From: Escallonia rubra
Taxonomy: Eukaryota > Streptophyta > Magnoliopsida > Escalloniales > Escalloniaceae
Direction: 5' to 3'
Length of the DNA stretch: 64,000 nucleotides
NCBI GenBank assembly: GCA_033065855.1
Contig: JAVXUO010000737.1
Coordinates: forward strand, 248,001 to 312,000
Numbering within the stretch: position 1 is the first letter of the stretch; every line of letters begins with the position of its first letter. Positions 3,377-56,200 of the stretch are shown piece by piece. Under the pieces are notes generated by a model, which was not told the origin of the DNA, did not search any database, and worked only from the letters and a program-made list of their open reading frames with translations. The position numbers and the translations under genes were made by a program.

Positions 3377-5283
3377 TTAAGCAGAAGCCAGGCTCCCTCT
3401 CTCAGACCTAGAACTTGGGCCAAACAAGATAGTTTCCTCTCTGCCGAACTTGAGCCTCTGTGCCTCCTCCCGTGAAATCTGGTAGGCATTGGCGATGACA
3501 TCCACCGGAATGGCCCGGATTGCTGAGGTCCGCCCGGCCAGGGTACTGATCATGGCGTTGTCATTGGTCCTGAAGGACACCCATTCAACTCCCTGGTTTC
3601 CAGCCTGTTTCATCACGGCGTAGTTCTGTGGGGCTATCACGACTTGTCCCTCTCGGATTTGGGTGTCAAACACGGCCTCTCCGCGCTGATCAACGATCTG
3701 TATCCTTGCATCTCCCCTTGTGATGTAGATCACGCTGTGGGAATTCAAGTTCCAGTGTGGTGCCTTGATTGCGTTCTGCATTCATGCATAGTGTAGGGTT
3801 AAACAACAATTTTATTGATACACTATTATTGTTTGAGTTCGATTCGAGCTTACTTGACGTTTACATAGTACAAAATTTATCCAAATTTCAGTGGAACATA
3901 TGTAGCAATGCGTAGAAACAGTACTGCATTCGATATTCAGGCAACTAATTCTCTTACCCTATGGAGAACGCCTCTCTGGGCACTGAGTTGGAGAAACCGG
4001 AGAATGGGAAGATTGAAGCTGTTGACGTTCGTAAGCCGACCTGCGCGTGGGTTGTATATATCGGCACTCGAAGGGTCGTTGATGTTCTCTCTCAGCCTTG
4101 CGGAGCAGATGGTTTCCTCCAAGCCATTTCCACGCCCTTGCTCTTGCTCTTGTCGTTCCTGTTCTTCTCGCGACATTTGTGGCCTTATCACCTGAAGCCC
4201 CCGTTCAACTCTGACAATATGGCCCCTCTCGTCGTTTTCTCCCCGAAGCTTCCTTGCCGTCTCCGTGTCCACGTTGAATGCCTCGGCCAAAGTCTCAACA
4301 TCAAAACCCCTGAAGATGTTGCCGCAACCCTCTTGTTGCCCACGCTTGCGGCCCTGCTGTCCGTACTGTTGTTCTTGTTCTTGTTCTTGTTGTGGGTTTC
4401 CAGCAAAGAAGAACCTCTACAATTCCATGCAACAATATGTGAGACACATCGCCCATCCAGTTTTGTTAGTTTGACAGCATTTAGCTACTGTCATTTGAGC
4501 TTGCAGCCTAAATCTAGCCCAAAAAAGACGATTAGTACGCCAGTTCTATACGTTCTTTGATTACTAGCTTAGTGCATTTCTTACCCTAGGATTTCGATCA
4601 AGCTGGTTGGCGTTGTTGCTGGTGTCAAGCAAAACAACAGCAACAAGGTCCTTATCACCATCATTGTAGAGCCAGTGTGCCGCTCCAGCAGGGATTGCCA
4701 CAATGTCACCCTCTCTGAAGTGCCTAATTTTCTGATGGCGATCCTGCTGGAACCTCTGCCCTTCTTGTTCTCGTCCTTGTTCAGATTGTTGGGATGATTG
4801 GAAGGTCTCCGCACAACCAGGGAAAATAACCTCATGAAACCCTCTTCCTGTTGAAAAATACAGCACAGTAGAAGACATGAATCGTACTAGGTTTATTTTG
4901 TGTTTCAACCTAAAATCTTGGCCTTTTAGCGATGCTTATGCTAGCTCTACGCACTTTATTTAAAACTAGTTGCTAAAGATATTTTACCCACCTCGTTCAA
5001 TATAGACAAGTGAAGGAGTGTTAGTGTAGGAGGGCAAGAGAAGGCCTTTGGATCGGATAACGTGGCGAATCATGGCCACGCCGGCACATTGGAACTGGTC
5101 GTTGTTCCAGTCCCAGAACTGGCTTTCGCCAGCTTCTGCTTCGACGCGGTTGTTGGGTTCAAGAGCGTTGATCCTCTGAAGTTGGCACTCATTTTCCTGC
5201 TGCCATTGTTGCTGGCGAGCAACACAGCCATGGAAGATCAAAAGGAAGCCTAGGGAAAGAGAAAGCAAGGAAGGGCGAGCCAT
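3377..5283 (-). CDS. 11S globulin (legumin-type seed storage protein), gene A
   Basis: Four exons on the minus strand: 5283-4992, 4847-4585, 4416-3958 and 3775-3377, giving 470 aa. All introns are GT-AG and frames join (phases 1, 0, 0), the usual 11S four-exon plan. Residues 1-22 form a signal peptide ending H-G-C-V-A. Two cupin domains follow. Legumin hallmarks are ECQLQRINA and FQCAGVA in the first exon, FPGCAETFQ in the second, and the asparaginyl-endopeptidase site NGLEETIC, with cleavage after Asn282, which separates acidic and basic chains and supplies the interchain Cys. A Gln/Glu-rich variable stretch precedes the site. The protein should pass through the ER to protein storage vacuoles and assemble as a hexamer in seeds. 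No stop or frameshift is seen, so it looks intact. Confidence 0.95.
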
Positions 5284-5346
5284 GGTGATCGAGTGTTTGG
5301 TGATCTGATACTGATCTGATGGGAAGTGGCGAGTGGAAGCTGCTGG

Positions 5347-5354
5347 TATTTATA
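5347..5354 (-). promoter_or_regulatory. TATA box of globulin A
   Basis: TATAAATA on the minus strand, about 64 bp upstream of the ATG at 5283. Spacing is right for a short 5' leader. Confidence 0.6.
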
Positions 5355-6822: not shown

Positions 6823-7262
6823 ACTTGTTAGCTCCTTTCGGTAACACTTATTTCTCAAGTTTTTTCTCCAATTTTGTAAACTGGAGAAAATAAACGCGTT
6901 TGGCACACAATTTTTGTTTTGTTATTTTTTTTTCAGTTTTGAAAATCAGTTTTTAAAACAGGACTGTTTTTTAAAACTTCAAAAATGAGTTTTCGGTTTT
7001 CAATTTTGGTTTTTATTTTGAGACCACTACCACCACCCTCCCACCGCCGGCGACCACCGCCACCGCAAACCACTACCAAAGAAAAAACTCAAAATAAAAA
7101 CTGGGTAATCAAACACCCAAAAGAAAAAATTCAAAATAAAAATTAGGTAATCAAACACCCATTTGTTTTTGTAAATAAATAAATAAACTATTTTTTATTT
7201 TTGTTTTTTTGGAAATAGAAAATCAAAACGAGAAAGTGTTACCAAACGCTACCTAACAAGTT
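6823..7262. mobile_element. MITE-like element, copy 1 of a three-copy family
   Basis: The ends are inverted repeats. The left reads ACTTGTTAGCTCC...GGTAACACTT, and the right, reverse-complemented, reads ACTTGTTAGGTAGCGTTTGG then TAACACTT. The interior has runs of T, mirror phrases such as CAGTTTTGAAAA and CAAAATAAAAACTGGGTAATC, and a GC-rich CCACC/GCCGG core near 7026-7075. Related elements lie at 10564-10973 and 39714-40099. It has no coding capacity. Confidence 0.6.
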
Positions 7263-7610
7263 TGAAATATAGGTAATGGTACATAATTGATCAGTCAGCC
7301 CCTTATCTGTGCGAGGTCAAAAGTACGTGCCTCGTAGAGACGATGAAAAAACTCACTACCAAAGAAAAAACTCAAAATAAAAACTGGGTAATCAAACACC
7401 CAAAAAGAAAAAATTCAAAATAAAAACTAAGTAATCAAACACCCATTTGTTTTTGTAAATAAATAAATAATCTACTTTTGATTTTTGTTTTTTTGGAAAT
7501 AGAAAACCAAAACGAGAAAGTGTTACCAAACGCTACCTAACAAGTTTGAAATATTGGTAATGGTACATAATTGATCAGTCAGCCCCTTATTTATGCGAGG
7601 TGCCTCGTAG
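7071..7610. repeat. Tandem duplication of the right half of the MITE plus flank
   Basis: Sequence from 7071 to about 7345 is repeated at about 7354-7610 with a 283-bp offset and few differences. Both copies include the right end of the MITE, its flank (TGGTACATAATTGATCAGTC) and a CCTCGTAGAGACGATGA phrase. This is a direct duplication after insertion of the element. Confidence 0.8.
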
Positions 7611-25892: not shown

Positions 25893-27785
25893 TCAAGAAC
25901 TCCTCCTCCCTGGAGAAAGCAGGTAAGACTGCCCTCCCCTGCTCAGCTTCAGATTCTGGGCTTCACTTGGGGAGATTTGATACGAGTTGGTAATGACTTG
26001 CAGCGGCATGGCCCTGAAAACTGAAGTGTAACCAGCAAGAGGGCTCGACATAGGCGAGCCAGTCGTCTTGAATGTCACCCATTCGAAGCCATCCCTTCCT
26101 GCCCTCACCGTGGAGGCATAAAACTGTGGTACCACAAACATGTTGCCTCGGTTTACCCTCTCGTTTAGTACTGTTTGGCCGTTGCTTCCGACGACTTGTA
26201 CTTGGGCTTCGCCTCTAGTCACATACACGATGTTGTGGCCATTCATTGACCAGTGTGGAGTGAACAATGCATTCTGGGACATGGGCAAAAAATGAAGGAG
26301 TTATACTCTAGTCAATGAGACTAGGTAGCACAAATTCGAGGGCAAGTTACAACTGCTCAAAATGATATGACGTGATTCATGTTTTGTATATAACTTGATC
26401 AGAATTTAAGTGCCACATGATAATATTTAGACTTGTGTGTTAGTGACTCTTGTAGGTTTGACATGCATATCTTACCGGTAGAAGGTTGCCTTTGGATGCA
26501 CTCATATCGAGCAATCGAAGAATGGGAAGCTTGTGCTGATTGACAATGTTAATTTTTCCAGCTTGCCTCGAGTAAATGTCAGCTTCTCTTCGGTTGTCAA
26601 TGTTGGTGCTGATCTTCATGGAGCAAATATTTTCTTCTAAGCCGTTAGATTCATCTGCCCGCGGTCCTTGCTGTTGCTGTTGTTCTTCTTCGTCAGGTCT
26701 TATCACGCTCATCCCTTCTCGGACCTTGACAATGAGTCCTCGTTCGTTTTCCTGTTGCATCCTCCTCACGATCTCCCTGGGTACGTTGAATGCCTCGGCC
26801 ATCAATTCCTCGTCGAAAGCACGGAAAATGTTCTGGAATGTCTCCCTAGCTTGCTGGCCATTCTGCCCCTGTTGTCCTTGCGTTGGAACTCCTCCGGCTA
26901 GGTAGAAGGCCTACATGCACACAAAAGATATAACATGCAGCACATTTAGCAACAAACTGCTGCTATATACGGTTTATCCAACTGTTGTGGCTGTGCTCGA
27001 AAGTGCTGTACAACATGCATTGCATGCATGAATCGTTTCATTAGAGCACAACAATTCAATGCATTGAGTACAATACTTGAAGAAGCGTGCGAGATATGCG
27101 CTGTGCATGTGGTTCTATGATTACCCTAAGTTTCTGGTCGAGCTGATTGGCCTGGTTGTTGAGGTCGGTGATTGAGACGGCAACTAGATCTTCATTGCCA
27201 TCGTTATAGCACCAGTGGGCTGCACCAGCCGGAAGGGCAATGATGTCTCCCCTACGGAAGCGGTGCACCTTCTGGTGCAGGTCAGATTTTCTGCCACGCC
27301 CTTCTTGTTGCTGCTGTTGCTCTTCTTCTTCTTGGCCCCTCCTGGATTGCTGTGACTTCGAGTGGTATGTCTCTGCACATCCTGGGAAGGTAATCCCGAT
27401 CAACCCCTGACCTGCATGCATCAAAAATCTTTTCAATGTCAGATGAAACATTAAGATTCATCTCTATGTAGTATTTGTCTCTCTCCTTCTTACCTTTCTC
27501 GATGTAAACTAAGCGAGGGGCAGGATGGAAGTTAGGCAAGGAGAGGGAATTGGGCCGCAAAGTGTTCCTCAAAGCCGCAACCCCGACGCACTGGAACTGG
27601 TCCTCCCTCTCGTTCCAAAGCTCGGTGGTACCGCCCTCGGACTGAATGCTTTGCGATGGTTGGCTAGCCGTTAGCCTTTGGAGCCGGCACTGTTGGGCCT
27701 CGCTCAGTCGGGTGGACTGGTTCCTCCCGACCGCGGCCGACACAAGCAGAGAGAGGAATATTGCTAGAAGCAGTTTGGTAGCCAT
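25893..27785 (-). CDS. 11S globulin (legumin-type seed storage protein), gene B
   Basis: Four exons on the minus strand: 27785-27494, 27411-27125, 26910-26476 and 26273-25893, giving 464 aa. Intron positions and phases match gene A, and the first exon is the same length (292 bp). Residues 1-20 are a signal peptide (LLLAIFLSLLVSAAVG). Cupin-family legumin marks are QQCRLQRLTA, FQCVGVAALR, FPGCAETYH and the processing site NGLEENIC, with cleavage after Asn282, the same residue number as in A. The variable region is Gln/Glu-rich, followed by RADESNG. The protein differs from A at roughly half of aligned positions by eye, so this is not a recent copy. No disruption is seen. Confidence 0.95.
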
Positions 27786-27852
27786 TGCAAGCAAGCACAG
27801 AGAGGGAAACGGGAGATCTCGAGATGCGATGGGTTTGGCCTGAGAGAGGCCA

Positions 27853-27859
27853 TTATATA
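27853..27859 (-). promoter_or_regulatory. TATA box of globulin B
   Basis: TATATAA on the minus strand, about 68 bp upstream of the ATG at 27785, matching the spacing in gene A. Confidence 0.55.
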
Positions 27860-27924
27860 GTGTACAGGGGCTTGGCTTCTAGGAAAAAGTGGCTGCCCGA
27901 GTGGCAATAAAGTCTGTTTTCTTC

Positions 27925-39713: not shown

Positions 39714-40099
39714 TAAGGGTCTGTTTTTTCTTTCCTCCAACATTGTAAACCGGAGAAAAAAAAAATGCGTTTGACACACACTTTTCGTTTTTTTTTCTTC
39801 AGTTTTGAAAAACAGTTTTTAAAATAGAGTTGTTTTTTAAAACTCTCATTTTGGAGTTTTTGTTTTTGTTGTAAGACCACCACCACCGCTACAGCCACCG
39901 CCCCCTTGCGCCGGTCACCGCCACGCCCCACCATAGCCACTGCAACCACCACCAAAGGAAAAACTTTAATTAAAATAAAAACTTAAAATAAAAACTGAAT
40001 AATCAAACATCTATTTGTTTTTGTAAAAAAAATAAACTAGTTTTTGTTTTTTTAGAAAGAGAAAATCAAAACTGTAAGTGATTTCAAACACTACCTAAG
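39714..40099. mobile_element. MITE-like element, copy 3
   Basis: Ends (A)CTAAGGGTCTGTTTT and, inverted, CTTAGGTAGTGTTTG. The interior plan matches the copy at 6823 closely, with shared GGAGAAAA...GCGTTTG(A/G)CACACA, TTGAAAA(A/T)CAGTTTTTAAAA, a CCACC/GCCGG core and AATAATCAAACA. It lies ~300 bp upstream of the SLU7 start. Confidence 0.6.
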
Positions 40100-40389
40100 A
40101 TTCCGAGGTTTCAATTTAAATACACAATACCCTAGAGTTGAGGATTGGTTCCAATTGGACCGAAAATTATTTTTCAGTTAAAAAGAGGTAGATGGCCTTC
40201 CACATTGAGGAAAATTTTGTATAACAAGGCACACACACAAAAACACAAAATATGCAGAAACACACAAACCCAACGATACATGGTGGTGCTCCCTACTCCC
40301 CCCTATAATTACCTACCACAAAAACACAACACCCGCACACATTGTGCAAAGAAAGCTACAAGCCTAAAATTCCTTTGAAGAGGTGGCAA

Positions 40390-41200
40390 TAGGTTTGAAT
40401 GCGCGCGCGTGTGTGTGTGTGTGTGTGTGTATGTGTGTGTGTGTGTGTAGGTGTTATGTGTTTGTGGTGGGTGATTAAAGGGTAGGGAGGGGGGTGGCAC
40501 CATTGTGTGTGAGTGAGTGGGTGTTTCATTGTGTATGCAGGCGGGGTTGTGTTTTGGTAGGTGATGCATAGGGCGGTGGACGGTGGTGTTGTATGGGTTG
40601 TGAGGGTGGTGATGCATGGGGCAATGTATGGTGGGTCTTGTGATAGTGAGTTATGGGGCAAATGGTGGGTGCACCAAGTGTTGTGTTTTCATGTATAAGC
40701 AAATGAGGATTGGGCGCGAAGATGACATGCTCTGTTGTGGGTTTTCTTTTTGCATTTGTGTGTGTGTGTGTGGTTTTTTTTTGTTTTTTTTTGGTGCGTG
40801 ATTAGGAGGGGGTGCTTAGGAGAGGGCACCGTCGTGTATGGGTGGGTGTTTCTTTGTGTGTGCATACTGAGTTGTGTGATCCATAGGGCGATGGATATTA
40901 GGTGTTAGCGGTGTTGGGTTTTGTGGGTGTTGAGTGTGTTATGATGATGGATGATGGGGCAGACGATGGGTGCCTCAGTGTGATGTTTTCGTGTGCGTGC
41001 AGATAAGGATTGGGGGGCAAGAGTGGCAAAGTCTGTGGGTGGGTCTTGCTTTTGTGTGTGTGTGTCTATGTGTGTTTAGTACATGATTAGAGGGATGGGG
41101 GTGAGGGGAGGGGGCACCACTGTATTTAAGGTGGCTATGTGTTTCTGTGTGTGTATGTGTGTGAGTGAGAGAGAGAGAAAAAAAGATAAACCAACACAAT
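40390..41200. repeat. GT-rich minisatellite
   Basis: Three imperfect units of about 300 bp, each with a (GT)n run, a GTGATTA(A/G)AGGG-like phrase, a GGGAGGGGG(T)GGCACC(A/G) phrase and GTGGGTGTTTC. They start near 40408, 40755 and 41053. No coding meaning. Open frames on either strand only translate the repeat. Confidence 0.65.
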
Positions 41201-44162
41201 TTCCTTCCAAAATGATTTCTTTTTGCTTGTTACCCACAACTGCCCCTCAAGGTGGATGGTAATCCAGTTTTTCTTAAATGACAAATTGATTTTGGGTCTA
41301 ATTAGAACCAATTCTTAACGTTAAGGCGTTATGTTTTTCAATTGAAACCTCAGGGTCTTATTTGAGACACCGAGGTAAACCTCATGGAGTTTGGAGTAAT
41401 TTATCCTATTTAAGTTGTAAGAAAATTAATTAGATTTTCTTAATATTAGGGTTCCCTAATTAATGATTTTGATTGCAGTGGAAAAATTATATTTTGAAAA
41501 TGTCAATAGTATCGTTAAACTACGTATCTTTCTCATCTCCCTTCTCCTCCCTCCACAGCCATCACAACCTCGCTCCACTGCTCACCGAACTCCAAACTCA
41601 ACTGCACCGGCCACCACATTCACACATTGGCCACCACCATCAAACAATCGCCTTCAGTTTCTTTCAATTTTTGACACGCACATACTCACACACACAAATT
41701 TTTAAATATGCATACAGACACACACACACACATAATTGGATGTATGTCTCTCTGTGTGTGCCTCCGCGCGTGCGTGAGTGTTTGTGGGTGCGAATGCAGA
41801 TTTGTGGGTGCGCGCGCGCATGTACGTTTGTGGTGTGTACTTTCACTTTTAGTGAGTGAATTCAACAACAAGCTTGTAACGAAGAAGATTAAGCTCAAGT
41901 TTGATACACATATACAAAATGAATTAAGGTTTCAATTTCACTGTTTTGCAAATAAAGATGTATTGATTTGTAGCATGAATTTTAGTTGTTGAGGTAGTGA
42001 TGTGGTGGTGGTTGGAGTTGAAGTGAGTAGATCTGGGTCAATGTAGTTAACTTTTTGCGGGTGCAGTTTTTTTTTTTTTTTTTTTTTGGGGTGGGGGGTG
42101 TGGTTAACCTATCAGAGTGTGTTTGGCAACGGCTTGGGGTTATGTGGTTGCTTTGGTTAGCGGTAGTGCCGTGGTGGTAGTTGATGGTTGGAGTTGGAGG
42201 GGGCAGAAAGACATGGTGGTGGTGATTAAAGTATGAGAGAGAAAAGAGAGTAAAAAGGCCATTAGGATTCTGTTTGCTCAACGGACACACGCCATATTAT
42301 GACAAAATGTAGTTCTCGGTGTAATTTATCTCTAAACTTAAGGAGTTCAGTGCACCTACTCCATTCAGGTTGCACTTCACCATATTTTGCTTTATGTGGA
42401 TCGAGGTTTAGGATCGTCTAATATTCCATGTTATACATAAGAGCGGATGCCAAAATTCCACGTTGACTATACGTGGAGATTGTGACCAGTTATTATATCT
42501 AGTGGGCTTAACCTTCTGATGAACATATTTTTACGTTGGGTACCAGGTTTAAAAAATCACCCTTTATATGGTTATTGATATTCAACATTCTTGCTTAGGA
42601 TGATGATTGGGAAAAGAAATAACATAAAATGAGTAAAACTATATAGCTACATCATGTAAATAGCTTCGTAAAAATGGGTGAGTTACACTCTATAGCATAT
42701 ATATAGAATTAAACAGTAACAAAAAGAAAAGAAAGGAAGAGTCGCGGTTTACTTCTATTTGAATTTTGTTCTTTCCTTTTGAGTGTTTTTTTTAGATGGT
42801 CTTTGTAAATAGATATTATGTTCTAATAAGTATTTTTCATTTATTTCATCCATGATGAGTCAAGGGACATAATTCAAGACATCTAACATCTCTTACGACC
42901 AATGTCTCCGACATCTCTCCCAACCTTAGCCACAAACAACCCGATATTCTTGCCACTGAAACTACCCATCTCGCCATTTCCATCACCACCTCGTCAGCCT
43001 CGCACCCTTGTTCCACATTGCAAACATCTTCACCACCTCGTCATCCCTGCACAATGGCCACCATATCCCCTGATTGGATCTGTTACCCTCATTTCCCGTT
43101 CAATATGCTACCCACCACCATCACCACTACCCCTTCACCCATCGTGCCTATCTTCGGATGATCAACCCACCCATTATCCTCTTTAACCATCTAAAACCAT
43201 TGACTTTGGTGGTGACTGTATGAAGTGATTGGTTTAGCGAGAAGAGCAGCTTGGTAAGATTTTTTCTTAAAAGAAATTATTTTTTTGCCCTTCCCTATTT
43301 GGATCTAAACTGATGAGATTGACAAAAAAGAACTTTTTGGAAGAGAAATTTTTTATACAATGAGCATTAAAAACAATTAAAAGCAGAATGAAGAAATCGC
43401 AACTGAAAGCAAAGGGAGAGGACTATTTTTGCTACTTTTCCCAACATAAACGCTAATCTTCGTTCATAAAGGTAATTTACAAGCAATTTTGGTTTCCTTA
43501 TAACTTCATTCACCTTTATTATTATTTTTTGTTGTGTTAGTCTATATATGCTTTTATTACTCTTTTAATTTTTATTATTAGATTTGCGTTGAGTTGCCAT
43601 AATCGAGGATTTGTTTGGTGAGTTTTTTCTCTGGAAACCTTAATTTCTAGAGAGAAGGCAGAGTCTCTCTCCTTTCTTTTGTAATGGTCTATATCTACCT
43701 TTATTACTCTTTTGATTTTTTATATAGCAGTTCAAATATTCGAGAGTACTTTTCACCATTGAGATAGAAAAAATAAATAGCTTAGTTACTCTTTTAATCG
43801 AAAAGAAAAACTCGAGATAACTCTAAAAAGTAACGCAAAATGATATTGAAAATCAAGCGGTTTGATTGTTTGGATCAACTAAACCCAATCTCAAGGCCCA
43901 GTGAAAGCTAATCCACTTTTGATCTACAAACAATTCAAGTCCAATCCATGTAGATCCAGAACCCATAACCTATATCCCTGGCTACTCTGGCTGCGTTGCT
44001 TAGTGAAGAATTATTTGGATTGGATCTCAGAGTTTTTGGATATGTAGGATCGCTGCCCATTTAACTCCTTAATGCCATTAATGGATTAAACCCATTAAAC
44101 CCCTGCCCAACTTGATCAACTGCGCTTAATTTAAAGATATAAAATTTTTGGTTACGGTCCGG

Positions 44163-50205: not shown

Positions 50206-50999
50206 TTAAAGACAATCAGGCCACTAAGAAGGACGTAGACTTTTGACTGTGCAAATATTAATGTTGCGCTCCTATTATGCAAAAAACTTAATAAACTATA
50301 ACGAAATATTACACCCAAGCCGAACACATAAAAGAGGGATATAATACTCCATCCGGCCCTAATTAATTGATAATATTTTCTTTTTGCTGTCTGAAAAAAA
50401 TTGATCACTTCCCAAATTAAGAAGGGTTAATTACTCTCGGCACCCCTGAGGTTTACCCTAAATTACACTCGGACCCTCATACATTTTGAAAATTACACTC
50501 CACTACCCTGAGGTTTGTATCCGCATTTCACGGAGCCCCCAAAAATTGACGGAGACCCTAACTCCGTCAAAAGATGGTCTGACACTTCACTTTTTGGATT
50601 TTTCATCCCCAAAATGTCCATCCCTTTCTTGAATAAAACCCCTCTTGCCCTTAGGGTTTTTATTCTTCTTCTTCTTCTTCATTCTCTTTCTCTTCAGACC
50701 CATTTCTTTCTCCTTCTTCTCCCTTTCCTTCACTTCATTCTTTCCCTTCTAACCAAAAAATGTCAAGGTCAGGACATGGTGACTTCGATCTAATCTCCTC
50801 CACCTCTTTAGACATTTATTTACATTTTAAAATACAGAACTCTAGACGACAACATGGTCTATATCTGCCAACCTCCTTCTCATCCAATCTTCTCGGGACA
50901 AACAAGTACGAGCCTCTTTCTACCAATAATACTCGCCACCTTTTGATTTTCCAAATGAAGATGTTTACGTTGGCAAGCCTTGTTCTCCTAATCCTGTGT

Positions 51000-52225
51000 T
51001 TGAAAGCCACTTACCCTCTCACTCTTGTACTACTCCTGTTTGTCTCTCTTGCCCTTCTTCCTAAACCTCTGGTTGACTCCAGGAGGTTTTGCATGGAGAA
51101 CCTATGAACAGAAAATCCCTTCAAAGCTTCGTGGTCCCATCGGTTGGCCTTTCTTGGGGACGATCCCGGCTCTAATGCGGGCTCCTTTGAGAACGTTCCC
51201 CATGCTCCTGTCCATAGATGGACCGGCGACCCTACCCAAACAAACGGAGAGGACATGGGGATCTTCTACTCTGCTGCACGAGATCCCATATTCTACTGCC
51301 ACCATGCTAATGTTGACCGCGCATGGACGATATGGAAAACCCTATGAGGCAAACGCAAGGACTACAACGACCCAGACTGGTTAAACGCTTCGTTCGCATT
51401 CTACGACGAGAACGCGCAGCTAGTGCACGTCAAGGTGGCCGATTGTGGCGACCAGACAAGACTAGGGTACGCCTACCAGGCCGTGGACATACCCTGGCTC
51501 AAAAGCAAGCCGGTGCCTGGGAAGAAGAAGTCAAAAGTGGCTACTACGTTCGCAAGGGCAAACAACGCCACGGTTGTGTTCCCAATAACCTTAAACAAGA
51601 TAGTGCAAGTGGTGATCAAAAGGCCGAAAAAGTCCCGGAGCAAGAGGCAGAAAGAAGAAGAGGAGGAAGTGCTATGCTTAGAAGGGATAATGCTGGACAG
51701 GGCAAAGTACATCAAGTTTGATGTGTACATCAACGATGAAGATAGCAAGGGGAGTGCACCGGACAAGACGGAGCTGGTGGGGAGTTTTGTGAACTTGCCG
51801 CACCAGCACAGCCACAAGAGCATGTTCAAGAGAAGCCAGAAGTTTACCACAGATGGGCAGCCATGCTCACCGAAAACTAGCCGCTACGGCATGTTCCTTG
51901 GGCGCAACGCGTCTCATGGCATTCAGTCTCGGCGCGACCCGCGTGATCATCAGCAGTGACCCCGACACGGCCAAGGAAATCCTTTGTGGGAGCTCGTTTT
52001 TGGACCGCCCCACGAAGGAATCAGCCCGGCTGCTGATGTTCGAGCGTGCCATTGGATTCGCTCCCTCTGGTGCCTACTGGCGCCAGCTCAGGAAGATTGC
52101 GTCAAACCACATGTTCTCCCCAAGGAGAATTTCAAGCCTCGAGGGCGTTCGACAACATGTAGTCGACGACATGATTGCTGGGGCGGTCCAAAAACGGTCC
52201 AAAAGCATAAGAAACTCGAAGGTAA
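51000..52225 (+). pseudogene. Captured CYP78A cytochrome P450 5' fragment, interrupted
   Basis: Part 1, about 51000-51170, reads a hydrophobic anchor, then [20 protein letters not shown] and [12 protein letters not shown] frameshift seems to lie in the anchor, as hydrophobic reading occurs in two frames. Part 2, from 51853, reads MGSHAHRKLAATACSLGATR, FSLGATRVIISSDPDTAKEI, DRPTKESARLLMFERAIGFA and YWRQLRKIASNHMFSPRRIS, then loses homology near 52225. Both parts match the CYP78A N-terminal third and would join almost without loss at the proline-rich hinge. The region between is polyphenol oxidase. The oxygen-binding, ERR and haem-Cys regions are absent, so no enzyme can result. Confidence 0.88.
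51171..51852 (+). pseudogene. Polyphenol oxidase fragment inserted within the CYP78A fragment
   Basis: Starting near [19 protein letters not shown] it reads the tyrosinase CuB region, with the HxxxH pair and then [15 protein letters not shown]. It continues into DWLNASFAFYDENAQLVHVK and DIPWLKSKPVP. It ends inside the C-terminal PPO1_KFDV domain, at IKFDVYINDEDSKGSAPDKT, GSFVNLPHQHSHKS and MFKRSQKFTT. The CuA half, the transit peptide and the extreme C-terminus are missing. One in-frame TGA at 51345-51347 breaks the frame between WKTL and GKRKDYND. The rest stays open, suggesting recent capture. Confidence 0.9.
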
Positions 52226-52435
52226 TCCCTCCACCTCGTCACTAGTCTGCAATTTCAATTTTTGGGTGAGAGTTTGAGCTTCGCACAGTGGTTGTGGTGG
52301 CCACGAACATGGTTAGACAGTGGGGGAGTTGCAGGTGTTCATGTGTGTGTGTTCAGCTATTTTATGTGCATGATCTGTAGTATTATATGTTAATGTGTGA
52401 GTATGAGAGGAGGGGATGGATTTCAGTGAGTTGTT

Positions 52436-52445
52436 GAGGAGGTTG

Positions 52446-52482
<37 letters not shown>

Positions 52483-52490
52483 GGGTGTGT
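52436..52490. repeat. (GT)n microsatellite inside the Pack-MULE
   Basis: A run of TG dinucleotides between about 52446 and 52480, within a wider GT-rich stretch of the element. Confidence 0.85.
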
Positions 52491-53275
52491 TTGTGGGTGA
52501 TTATGTGTGCGAATTGAATGTAATTAGGTGTTAATGGTGCATATGTGTGTGTTGCAAGGTGTTTTGAGTGATATAGAGTGGGTTTGGTGGGGAATTAGTG
52601 TGTGTTTGTAAGGGTGATTGTGTGGGTGTGCGACTGTACGTTTGTGTGTGACTGTGTGTGTATATGTGATAATCTGTGCGTATAGGCTGGTGTAATTGTG
52701 TTTAAATTATGTTACTTGGTGTTAGTTAATCCATGGAGGTGTTTTCTAGTGTGTTGAGGACAAATTAATGGGTGTATGTGTGAGTTGGAACCGCCATGTG
52801 ATCCTGCTGAAGGTGGAAGAAGAGAAATAGGTGTAAATAAGGTGAAAGTAGGGGTGTGATTCAAATAGTAATTGAAATTGTCTTTCATGGTGAATGAAGG
52901 GTATGAGGGCAGAAAGGTCTTTTTATGACCAGCCGTTAACCCCGTCAAAGAAATCTAAATTTTTGGGGCTGAGTGTAATTTTCAAAGATAGTGAGGTCCG
53001 CGTGTAATTTAGGGTAAACCTCAGGGGTGCCGAGAGTAATTAACCCAATTAAGAAAGATTCTATAGTTGTTTTTCCATGTTTACCCTTCTTATACTTTTT
53101 TTGTTCTGTTTCTTTCTCCATATTAATCTTCCACCAACTCATTTTTTTTTTCATCTGACCCACTTTCTTTCCTCCCTCTCTCTTGGGGTAGAATGAGAAA
53201 CTTGTAAAATATAGCTCATATCCTAAATAAGTGTGCAAGTCAAATACGATCAATTAATTAGGGACGGAAGGAGTA

Positions 53276-56200
53276 TTAGAAAAAACACAAGAGGAGTTTG
53301 ACCATCATACTATTCGACATCTGATGTGAGATATTACAATTATTACAAGGAATCTGACCATCTTGATAGAGTCATTGTATTTTTATGCCAAGTTGAAACT
53401 AAGCGTGTCTCCTGCATTTTGAATCGAGAATGGCTTGGAGCGTTTGCAACATTAACATGTATACACGTATTTCGGCTAAACCTACCTCAAGATATGAGTA
53501 CCCCTTTAGATTTATCTATCAACAACTGTTTTACCTCCTACTTTTGCCATGTTTTGAAGTAAGAAAAAATTACTTTCATTTGTTGATTTATAATTAGACA
53601 ATCGTGAATAAGAGATAGCTAAAACTCCTATATAGATTGACATAAACGTCTTTAGAATGCATAAATACCAACCAAAGACGACCTTCATAATAATCTTTAG
53701 AATGCATATATACCCTCACGGGGGGTCAAAGAAAGAGGCCATGTAAAACGTTTTCCTGACTCGCTGACCTTGAAACAAAATGGAATGAGCTTTCGAGCAA
53801 CAGTGTTGTCCATATACCATGCAACTTGTAAGCAAACAGATGCTTCTCTCTTTCTCGCCCCCTTCGTTTCACCTTCTTTGCCTATGAGGTGTGCCTGACC
53901 CCCCAAGTTAAGCCAAGTAGTAACACTGGCGGTAATATATATATATATATACTTCGCTTCAAAGTGTATATTAATTAAGTTGGCATGGCGTTCTTGTATA
54001 TCACGTCTACGATATACCAATTGATGTATCTCAAATATACTCCCAATAATTGGGGAATACCGGCAATCCTAGTCGAACTGGCACTTGACCAATCATGCAA
54101 AGTGGAAACATAATTTTGCGTTAATACTTAAGCTGATCGAATAAGATGTTTATACACGAAAATACTGGAAAAAATATGAAAAATACGAAAAAGTAGTTTT
54201 CTAATGTCCTGCGCTAGACCGGAACAAACCCCTCCTAATTTTCCTTAGACGTAAGCGTTGAACTTTATCGGTGGCGATTATACTCTAGACACCCAAATAT
54301 AAAATAAGATCACTTCATTTAATTTTTCAAGTGGACCGCTAATGATTTCATGAGTTGAAAACCGGCCAGCCTGGTATCTTTCAGTTGTGAATTACCTGAA
54401 ATTTACAGATATGATGTCCACATCTAGAGTCCAAGTAAACTTAGGCTAGAATTTAATTAATACCAAGTGCAAGAAAGGAGTTAGTCCACTTAACGTAGTA
54501 TTAGCACCATAAAAGGGGTAGGCTTAATCAATAAACCACGTTTGCTAGCTACTTTGATGAAGTCATGCACATGTACATAACAACTGGCGACGGTTTTCCT
54601 CGTCCATCTCTTTGGCATTTGTGCTATATTAATATATCTTATACCTAATGTTTCACACAATTAATTAGGATTTTAATTTAGTCATCAGATTCTTTTGAAG
54701 CGTCACGATGCCCATCTAGCTCTAGACTCTCTCGCTCTCTCTGCGCTTTCACTCTTTGCTCTCGTTCTGTTTTTACCAAACACGTCTTTACATAGACCAC
54801 TCGTCTTTGCGCTCTTGTACTCCCATCCAGCAAAGCATCAAGCTTCTATATGTATTATTCTCAAATAAACGGAAATTGAACGCGCAAGAGATTATTTGCA
54901 CTTTCAAAAATCCTAATTCACTTACTTTAGTAAAAAGGTCAACACACATCCTTTTAAAAAAAAAAGCGACAGTATTAATGTTACTCTAATACCAGGTACA
55001 CTAGTCCAAGTAAGTGAGAATGAGCGACCAAGTCCAAGTCTAAAAAGGAAGAGTGCAAAAGAAAAGGGGGGAAAGAGTGATGATGTCATCGTATCGTATC
55101 CAAAATGTTGACCTTAAGAATGCCACGCTTTTCATGGCCAGCTTTTGAGAGCGGGGGACGGGCCCCTGCAAAGACCACAGAAAAAAAGGTGTGGCCACAT
55201 TTGTGTCCGTGAACCGTACACGGGCGACACCATACCGACATCAAATATATAAGCTAAAACGTCGGGATCAGATCGCGCTGCTGTATAACATATGTGCTGT
55301 ATTAAAAAAATACCGTTAAATATTTTTTAATGATAAAAAATTTTCATAACATAAATAAAACACTTTCTGCGACAACCTTTTTTTTGCTAAAATACAACAA
55401 AGAATTGAGGTAAGACTTGATCTCATGGAAGTGGAATTGAGAAAGGCTTGAGAACTTGTGCCCCATTGGATAAAGTAAGTACTTTACTAGTAAATATCAT
55501 ACCAAAAAGTTATCAAGTTATTTTGTATGTATGTATAGTAGTTTGAGATCCCGACGCCAATATGGAATTTGTGGCAATATCAACGTAGTTGTCCTTGTTC
55601 ATGTTACCAATTTGATTTCGAGTAGTAGAATCCACGTAAGTTTCGAAAAAATTATGGTTGCAACTCAATTGGAAAAAGATAGCTACAACCCCTTTATAGA
55701 GAGAATTAATGTTCTTTAAATAGTTTTAGTGACTTTTACTAAATGACCCTTAAAAAGTACTATTTAAAATTGTCGTCTGAGTGAGATTTTAGCAGATATA
55801 TATTTAACGACCACTGATTATCGTTATACAAAAAGTTATAACTATCTTCCTACAACCAGAGTAATAGTCTAGCCGCGATGTCAAAACAAATGTCTTGTTC
55901 CAAATCACTGTGCAATTTCGAAAGCTGGTGGTACGACGACTTCAAAGAGCAAATTGAATTGCAGTTCTAAACATTCCCTAAAAAAAAAAAAGGGCAAATT
56001 GACAAAAATTAAAACTATTTTGACAATAGATCTAACTAATTTAGGAACTCACCATTCAGAAATAGATTACAATAGAAGACCCTTCACTCTGTTGTCATTC
56101 TCTCTCTAAACTTTAAGCACAACCTGTAGAATGAGAATGACAGCAGAATGGAGGTTCATGCATCGTAATCGAATGGCAAAGACATAAGAAGCAACATCGT

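Follow-up and report, generated by a model that had tools for sequence, protein, structure and literature searches.

A 64,000-nucleotide stretch of the Escallonia rubra genome (contig JAVXUO010000737.1, here C2119:248001-312000; hereafter the window) carries a 2,623-bp element at positions 50424-53046 that has inverted terminal repeats, a flanking target site duplication, and an interior composed of fragments of a cytochrome P450 gene, a polyphenol oxidase (PPO) gene and a third, repetitive sequence (Table 1). The terminal inverted repeats are 76-77 bp long, agree at 90.9% over 77 columns, and are identical across their first 45 bases. Past 77 bp, end-to-end similarity offered nothing convincing (the score was reached by 19 of 500 shuffles), and longer terminal repeats were rejected for want of support in this shuffle test. 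The perfect 9-bp duplication, AATTAAGAA, abuts both ends of the element and is absent elsewhere in the window. When the 61,359 possible window positions were scanned for identical 9-mers at the element's spacing, a single one was found, the AATTAAGAA site itself. Target site duplications of 9-11 bp are a hallmark of Mutator-like elements (MULEs), and the window copy has one of 9 bp. The repeats also fall inside the 50-200 bp range given for MULE ends in the available text of PMC3276141.

Table 1. Features of the element and of its insertion site, in window coordinates
Feature	Position	Strand	Basis or match
Left part of interrupted, putative Stowaway-like MITE	50342-50423		inverted arms; arm 50342-50378
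Target site duplication AATTAAGAA, left copy	50415-50423	no strand
Left MULE backbone	50424-50782	+	columns 1-359 common to L021, L027, L029, L061, L064
Left terminal inverted repeat	50424-50500	+	alignment of element ends
P450 piece 1 (donor 5′ region and start of exon 1)	50780-51161	+	97.4% to L038 3670-4051
PPO fragment, nested in P450	51156-51845	+	9 differences/690 to L047 3600-4289
TGA stop in PPO frame	51345-51347	+	private to window copy
P450 piece 2	51844-52181	+	97.9% to L038 4053-4390
Inverted patch, 18 bp	52179-52196	-	inverted copy of P450 sequence 51995-52012
Third captured sequence (dispersed repeat), nested in P450	52204-52882	+	94% to L039 4223-4902 (C80)
P450 piece 3 (25 bp)	52883-52907	+	25/25 to L038 4517-4541
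Right MULE backbone, including right terminal repeat	52902-53046	+	columns 2479-2623 or 2483-2623, several siblings
Right terminal inverted repeat	52971-53046		within right backbone
Target site duplication AATTAAGAA, right copy	53047-53055	no strand
Right part of interrupted, putative MITE	53056-53278		inverted arms; arm 53242-53278

Four Pfam domains scored above cut-off within the element: tyrosinase, DWL (PPO1_DWL), KFDV (PPO1_KFDV) and P450. The end of the tyrosinase domain, PPO1_DWL and PPO1_KFDV occupy the middle part, with the P450 domain behind them. No transposase domain was matched by Pfam in the seven frames scanned (five, plus two from the 3′ part), and the element, with host gene fragments and no transposase match in these frames, is a Pack-MULE by content. 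Its terminal repeat pattern gave 0 matches in viral contigs and 0 in prokaryote genomes, as expected for a plant family, and no Rfam family was found in the window.

A preliminary description of this DNA had proposed a Pack-MULE whose inverted repeats, identical over their first 45 bp, and perfect 9-bp duplication bound 2.6 kb with pieces of two host genes, mostly open frames and no transposase. Alignment confirmed the repeats and the duplication, the lack of a transposase was borne out in the seven frames, and the Pack-MULE reading is supported as a whole. The P450 and PPO pieces are indeed present; the count of two sources was wrong, the repeat being a third. Two corrections concern the frames: relative to the donor, one inserted base puts the beginning of the P450 frame out of register, and the PPO frame has a stop codon private to the window copy. 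The description also did not mention the nesting, the fold-back patch, the MITE at the insertion site or the siblings with transposase domains. No full-length gene lies at the locus, since the P450 and PPO pieces are both partial, and the parental genes that the description had suggested looking for were found on other contigs of the assembly (566 Mb, 3,222 contigs).

The P450 donor is locus L038 on contig C3211, to which three pieces of the element match at 97-98% (100% for the 25-bp piece). Pieces 1 and 2 are contiguous in the donor save for one base, which is missing from the element, and 126 donor bases are missing ahead of piece 3. The donor exon has a P450 domain in Pfam and belongs to a gene that we take to be of the CYP78A subfamily, from its N-terminal and other motifs; the motif strings had no text match in open-licence literature. 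When the PPO piece was omitted, protein alignments to P450s ran without a gap across the insertion point, the best match to a solved structure (7x2q) rose from 42.6 to 53.3 bits, and the Pfam p450 score rose from 28.6 to 38.8 bits, the longer query adding to both gains. A side-by-side capture of two genes was dropped as a description of the cargo, as the PPO piece has P450 sequence to its left and right, and these two P450 stretches lie one base apart in the donor.

The PPO fragment spans the end of the tyrosinase domain, DWL and most of KFDV. Its donor, L047 on contig C984, is 98.7% alike and has an open frame of 613 codons in which tyrosinase, DWL and KFDV all score above the Pfam cut-off. 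A second PPO-like stretch (L048), 90% alike, lies on the same contig about 28 kb from this donor. At the private stop, both other copies of the element (below) and the donor have G at 51345; 8 differences from the donor over the 690 bases are shared. The P450 piece differs from its own donor at 15 of 720 positions (indels and the 25-bp piece left out), and the two divergences do not differ significantly (15/720 vs. 8/690, Fisher P 0.21), so that an order of captures in time based on donor divergence was rejected. The MULE end is absent from the 7-9 kb read at each of four donor or paralog loci.

The third sequence, like the PPO fragment, is nested in P450 sequence. We regard its source as a dispersed repeat because, among the matches listed (40 of 98 candidates scored), at least 38 further places in the genome match it, over shorter lengths and at 69-90%.

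Matching donors, the MULE backbone and three copies of the element are all present in one assembly, and because of this the junctions can be read base by base. Shared bases were found at 5 of 7 junctions: TGA (3 bases) from backbone to P450, GGGGAC (6 bases) from P450 to PPO, TT (2 bases) from PPO back to P450, TGG (3 bases) from P450 to the inverted patch, and TATGAG (6 bases) from P450 to backbone, giving a range of 2-6 bases. Random breakpoints were simulated for five junctions, the two at the patch being left out. The 17 shared bases observed compare with a null mean of 3.5 (P ~3e-5); the single-junction values for these five are 0.06, 0.0015, 0.16, 1 and 0.002.

Between the second P450 piece and the repeat lies an 18-bp patch that is an inverted copy of P450 sequence at 51995-52012 within the element. 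Inspection by eye showed a second copy from the same inverted source, ten bases long, at 52195-52204, and it is this second short fold-back copy that, by eye, makes up the 7 bases standing between patch and repeat. At 52001, in a CG context, the source stretch has T in place of the donor's C, and it is the element's version that is repeated in the patch; all three copies agree on the element's base at both places. The donor has a Ser codon here, as do two P450 protein matches, and two other aligned P450s have Lys and Ala. Leu, which the element encodes, occurs in none of the four aligned P450s and is probably derived. No inverted version of the patch source was present in the 9 kb read around the P450 donor. 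Because the patch carries the element's base at 52001 and not the donor's, the comparison suggests that the P450 piece was already resident in the element when the patch arose.

Two further copies of the window element were identified, on contigs C1051 (L036) and C1924 (L037), and the flanks of all three are different. Pairwise mismatches among the three are 8/2621, 7/2623 and 10/2623, with 10, 3 and 9 gap columns, respectively. Read by eye, the C1051 copy has a perfect duplication, AAATTCTTT, on both sides, and the C1924 copy has AAATAAATA on one side and TAATAAATA on the other, a duplication matching at 8 of 9 positions. Cargo and internal structure are the same at these unrelated sites with their separate duplications. 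The element moved after its cargo was complete, because three near-identical copies sit at unrelated sites. With a substitution rate of 6.5e-9 per site and year, which is uncertain for this species, the copies would be roughly 0.2-0.3 million years old. Recent activity, as the preliminary description had proposed from the clean duplication and open frames, is thus supported, and better by three copies 7-10 bases apart than by the frames. In the C1051 copy a base is missing at 51156, which gives an open frame of 284 codons in which P450 sequence, read out of frame, runs on into the PPO piece; it starts at window position 51104 (51103 when counted along that copy) and matches window positions 51104-51959. 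The corresponding frame in C1924 has 234 codons. No function is claimed for either of these predicted frames.

The wider family was sampled with the left end as query (50424-50520, 97 bases). With 40 of 1,392 candidates scored, which makes the counts lower bounds, the left end was found at 91-100% in at least 41 places in the genome, the window's own included; the further copies of the terminal repeat that the description had proposed to seek thus number at least 40. Thirty returned loci were read, three of them being the copies of the window element. A second end was found in 16 of these 30 loci, at a distance of 1.2-1.6 kb, and 11 of the 16 paired siblings have a perfect 9-bp duplication; the remaining five match at 8, 7, 7, 6 and 4 of 9 positions. 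Sibling duplications are often rich in A and T, so that single cases are weak.

Longer siblings share the backbone, and one of them has matches to transposase domains. In L061, which is the L021 place read further, MULE (PF10551), Transposase_mut (PF00872), MuDR DNA-binding (PF03108) and SWIM domains scored above the Pfam cut-off on the opposite strand, and a GRF zinc-finger frame lies on the same strand; the start codon of the siblings' GRF frame is at 50760, in the last part of the left backbone of the window element. L064, the L029 place, has both ends, 5,690 bp apart. Its frames are similar to those of L061, to which it is 92-98% alike over the main colinear stretches, and its flanking duplication (8/9) lies inside a run of A and so is weak. 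The window element is Mutator-like, because siblings, mostly with 9-bp duplications, share its ends and MuDR-type transposase domains occur among them. Host cargo was also found elsewhere in the family: sibling L005 carries a piece of a Ctr copper transporter (Pfam, E 9.5e-17), and L014 has a weak Glyco_transf_8 match below the curated cut-off. Pfam gave no match for one further L005 frame or for the tested frames from L030 and L062. L005 is one of six siblings (L005-L010) of about 1.47 kb, nearly equal in length and ends, which form another Pack-MULE lineage (L005 being the member tested).

Taken together, these data argue strongly that we are dealing with a non-autonomous Mutator-like element in which break repair has put host DNA in place of the original interior. 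A backbone like that of the 5.7-kb siblings would have lost its transposase interior and gained one contiguous P450 fragment. Later breaks within this fragment would have been repaired with foreign sequence as template, in most cases at short stretches of shared sequence. At one of them the 690-bp PPO piece would have been taken up, where one P450 donor base is now missing; at the other, the end would have folded back on nearby P450 and copied 18 bp of it in inverted form and then about 10 bp of the same source once more, after which 679 bp of the repeat were copied and 126 bp of P450 were lost. The finished element would then have moved to at least three sites, each with its own target duplication, presumably with transposase that siblings having these ends provided in trans. 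That the cargo was gathered in several events and not in one is probable in our judgement. We put forward more tentatively, as a proposition somewhat easier to doubt than to accept, that in this MULE family further capture takes place within cargo already captured: repeated breaks in resident cargo would be mended, independently of transposition, by fold-back and by microhomology-guided copying from unlinked genes, so that chimeric genes grow in layers before transposition spreads them.

Several observations weigh against this account. At 76-77 bp, the terminal repeats fall below the 100-500 bp that the available text of PMC3310237 calls typical. The transposase frame of L061 is broken by stops and the transposase-type frames of L064 are split between frames (introns not considered in either), so that neither gave an intact transposase frame; a search for the right end of L061 in the 401 bases fetched for it found nothing. 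The junction from repeat to P450 is blunt, with no shared bases; that from patch to repeat leaves 7 bases unaccounted for by the automatic test; and taken one by one, only the two 6-base junctions are improbable by chance. The copy of the repeat on C80, being only 94% alike, may not be the true donor. The argument from the patch would lose force if the change at 52001 arose as an error during that very repair or if the donor is polymorphic. Finally, no intermediate with P450 and without PPO was found with P450 piece 2 as query, whose five matches are the three copies, the donor and the C80 repeat.

This lack of intermediates is also what a single episode would leave, in which serial template switching ran from MULE to P450, PPO, P450 again, fold-back, repeat and P450 before returning to the MULE. 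The common coding direction of the P450 and PPO pieces, the microhomology at most junctions and the statistically indistinguishable donor divergences all fit such an episode. We nevertheless consider it rather unlikely, as the patch copies an element-specific base, which is most simply explained if P450 had been resident for some time, and as a PPO detour that returns to almost the same P450 base is the expected trace of break repair in resident P450. The nesting taken alone would also be explained if PPO and repeat had entered a chromosomal P450 gene first and a MULE had later taken up the ready-made chimera. This order of events is improbable: the matching P450 gene L038 has no such insert, the patch has the element's base and not the donor's, and no chimera beyond the three copies was found with either the P450 piece 2 query (5 matches) or the PPO query (7 matches).

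Another rival is the fusion of two neighbouring MULE insertions together with the intervening DNA, the model that PMC8903248 prefers for Pack-TYPE elements and for which its available text has compatible examples from other superfamilies. The donors lie on three other contigs, no such end occurs within the 7-9 kb read, and nesting with 2-6 bp of microhomology is not the product expected of neighbour fusion, which we therefore hold to be very improbable here. For a chance pattern or an assembly artefact no supporting point was found, and the occurrence of one internal structure in three copies, each on its own contig and between flanks of its own, leaves it a practically negligible probability. 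Nested capture, microhomology and a self-matching inverted patch thus favour break repair within the element over fusion of neighbours. How Pack-MULEs take up host DNA is unsettled, and the junctions described here bear on this mechanism; junctions and patch can also serve as markers for dating each capture step in other accessions.

The element is of a known kind and ordinary within its category; it is the structure of the cargo and the set of donors that make the capture unusually legible. Pack-MULEs were reportedly the subject of work by Jiang et al. in 2004. In a limited search of open-licence literature, no prior report of a Pack-MULE with P450 (CYP78A) and PPO was found. As far as the available texts go, Pack-MULEs of rice, maize, tomato and other plants resemble the window element in their inverted ends, 9-bp duplications and pieces of host genes, in having no transposase found, in occurring in several copies, and in having related siblings that bear transposase (PMC3276141, PMC3310237). 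Apart from its shorter repeats, the window element differs from those described there in that its second and third captures lie within the first, and in its legible junctions and inverted patch. Maize Mu13 is likewise non-autonomous, is flanked by a 9-bp duplication and contains gene-like sequence in the form of WD40-like frames; unlike the window element it has 223-bp ends and belongs to the classical Mu family, and the available text of PMC3276141 mentions no nested cargo for it.

Breakpoint microhomology and the copying of foreign templates between transposon ends are also features of the Pack-TIR elements of PMC8277862, for which gap filling and fork switching are considered. These are animal elements, unlike the plant element described here, and in the portion of that article available to us the applicability of both models to plant Pack-MULEs is called worth exploring. 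Pack-TYPE elements likewise draw cargo from several loci, by a proposed mechanism that differs, namely fusion of neighbours (PMC8903248, as far as its available text goes). Maize helitrons gather cargo stepwise, by what the available text of PMC3288121 proposes to be sequential helitron transposition, which again differs. The patch resembles the fold-back templated insertions of yeast, which are short inverted copies of nearby sequence made via microhomology, mostly of ~5-34 bp according to the available text of PMC11724301; those insertions occurred at yeast breaks and not in a transposon.

At its insertion site, the element appears to have split a miniature inverted-repeat transposable element (MITE), because the flanks, when joined over one AATTAAGAA, give a unit of about 305 bp with paired 37-nt ends. 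The arms, one on each side of the element, are 89% complementary, and TA is present on both sides of the MITE (by eye). We presume from its end motif that the MITE is of the Stowaway-like family. The near end of the element lies 968 bp upstream of the start codon of a MYB gene (49456, minus strand).

Genes nearby in the window are, besides the MYB gene, two cupin-domain genes and an SLU7 gene. The two cupin-domain genes resemble those for 11S seed storage globulins; they are located at 3377-5349 and 25893-27878, both on the minus strand, with a cupin domain in one tested frame each. Another inverted-repeat element occupies 40096-41360; its arms measure about 135 bp, and a GAGGTTT motif occurs close to one of its ends. 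Its kinship to the MULE was considered because of the similar GAGGTTT and is not claimed, as the alignment score was 24 and shuffles reached up to 26. Overlapping long inverted repeats, with arms of up to 276 nt at 93%, are clustered at 1-1150, and a tandem repeat with a 284-bp unit (1.9 copies, 95% matches) is located at 7067-7601.

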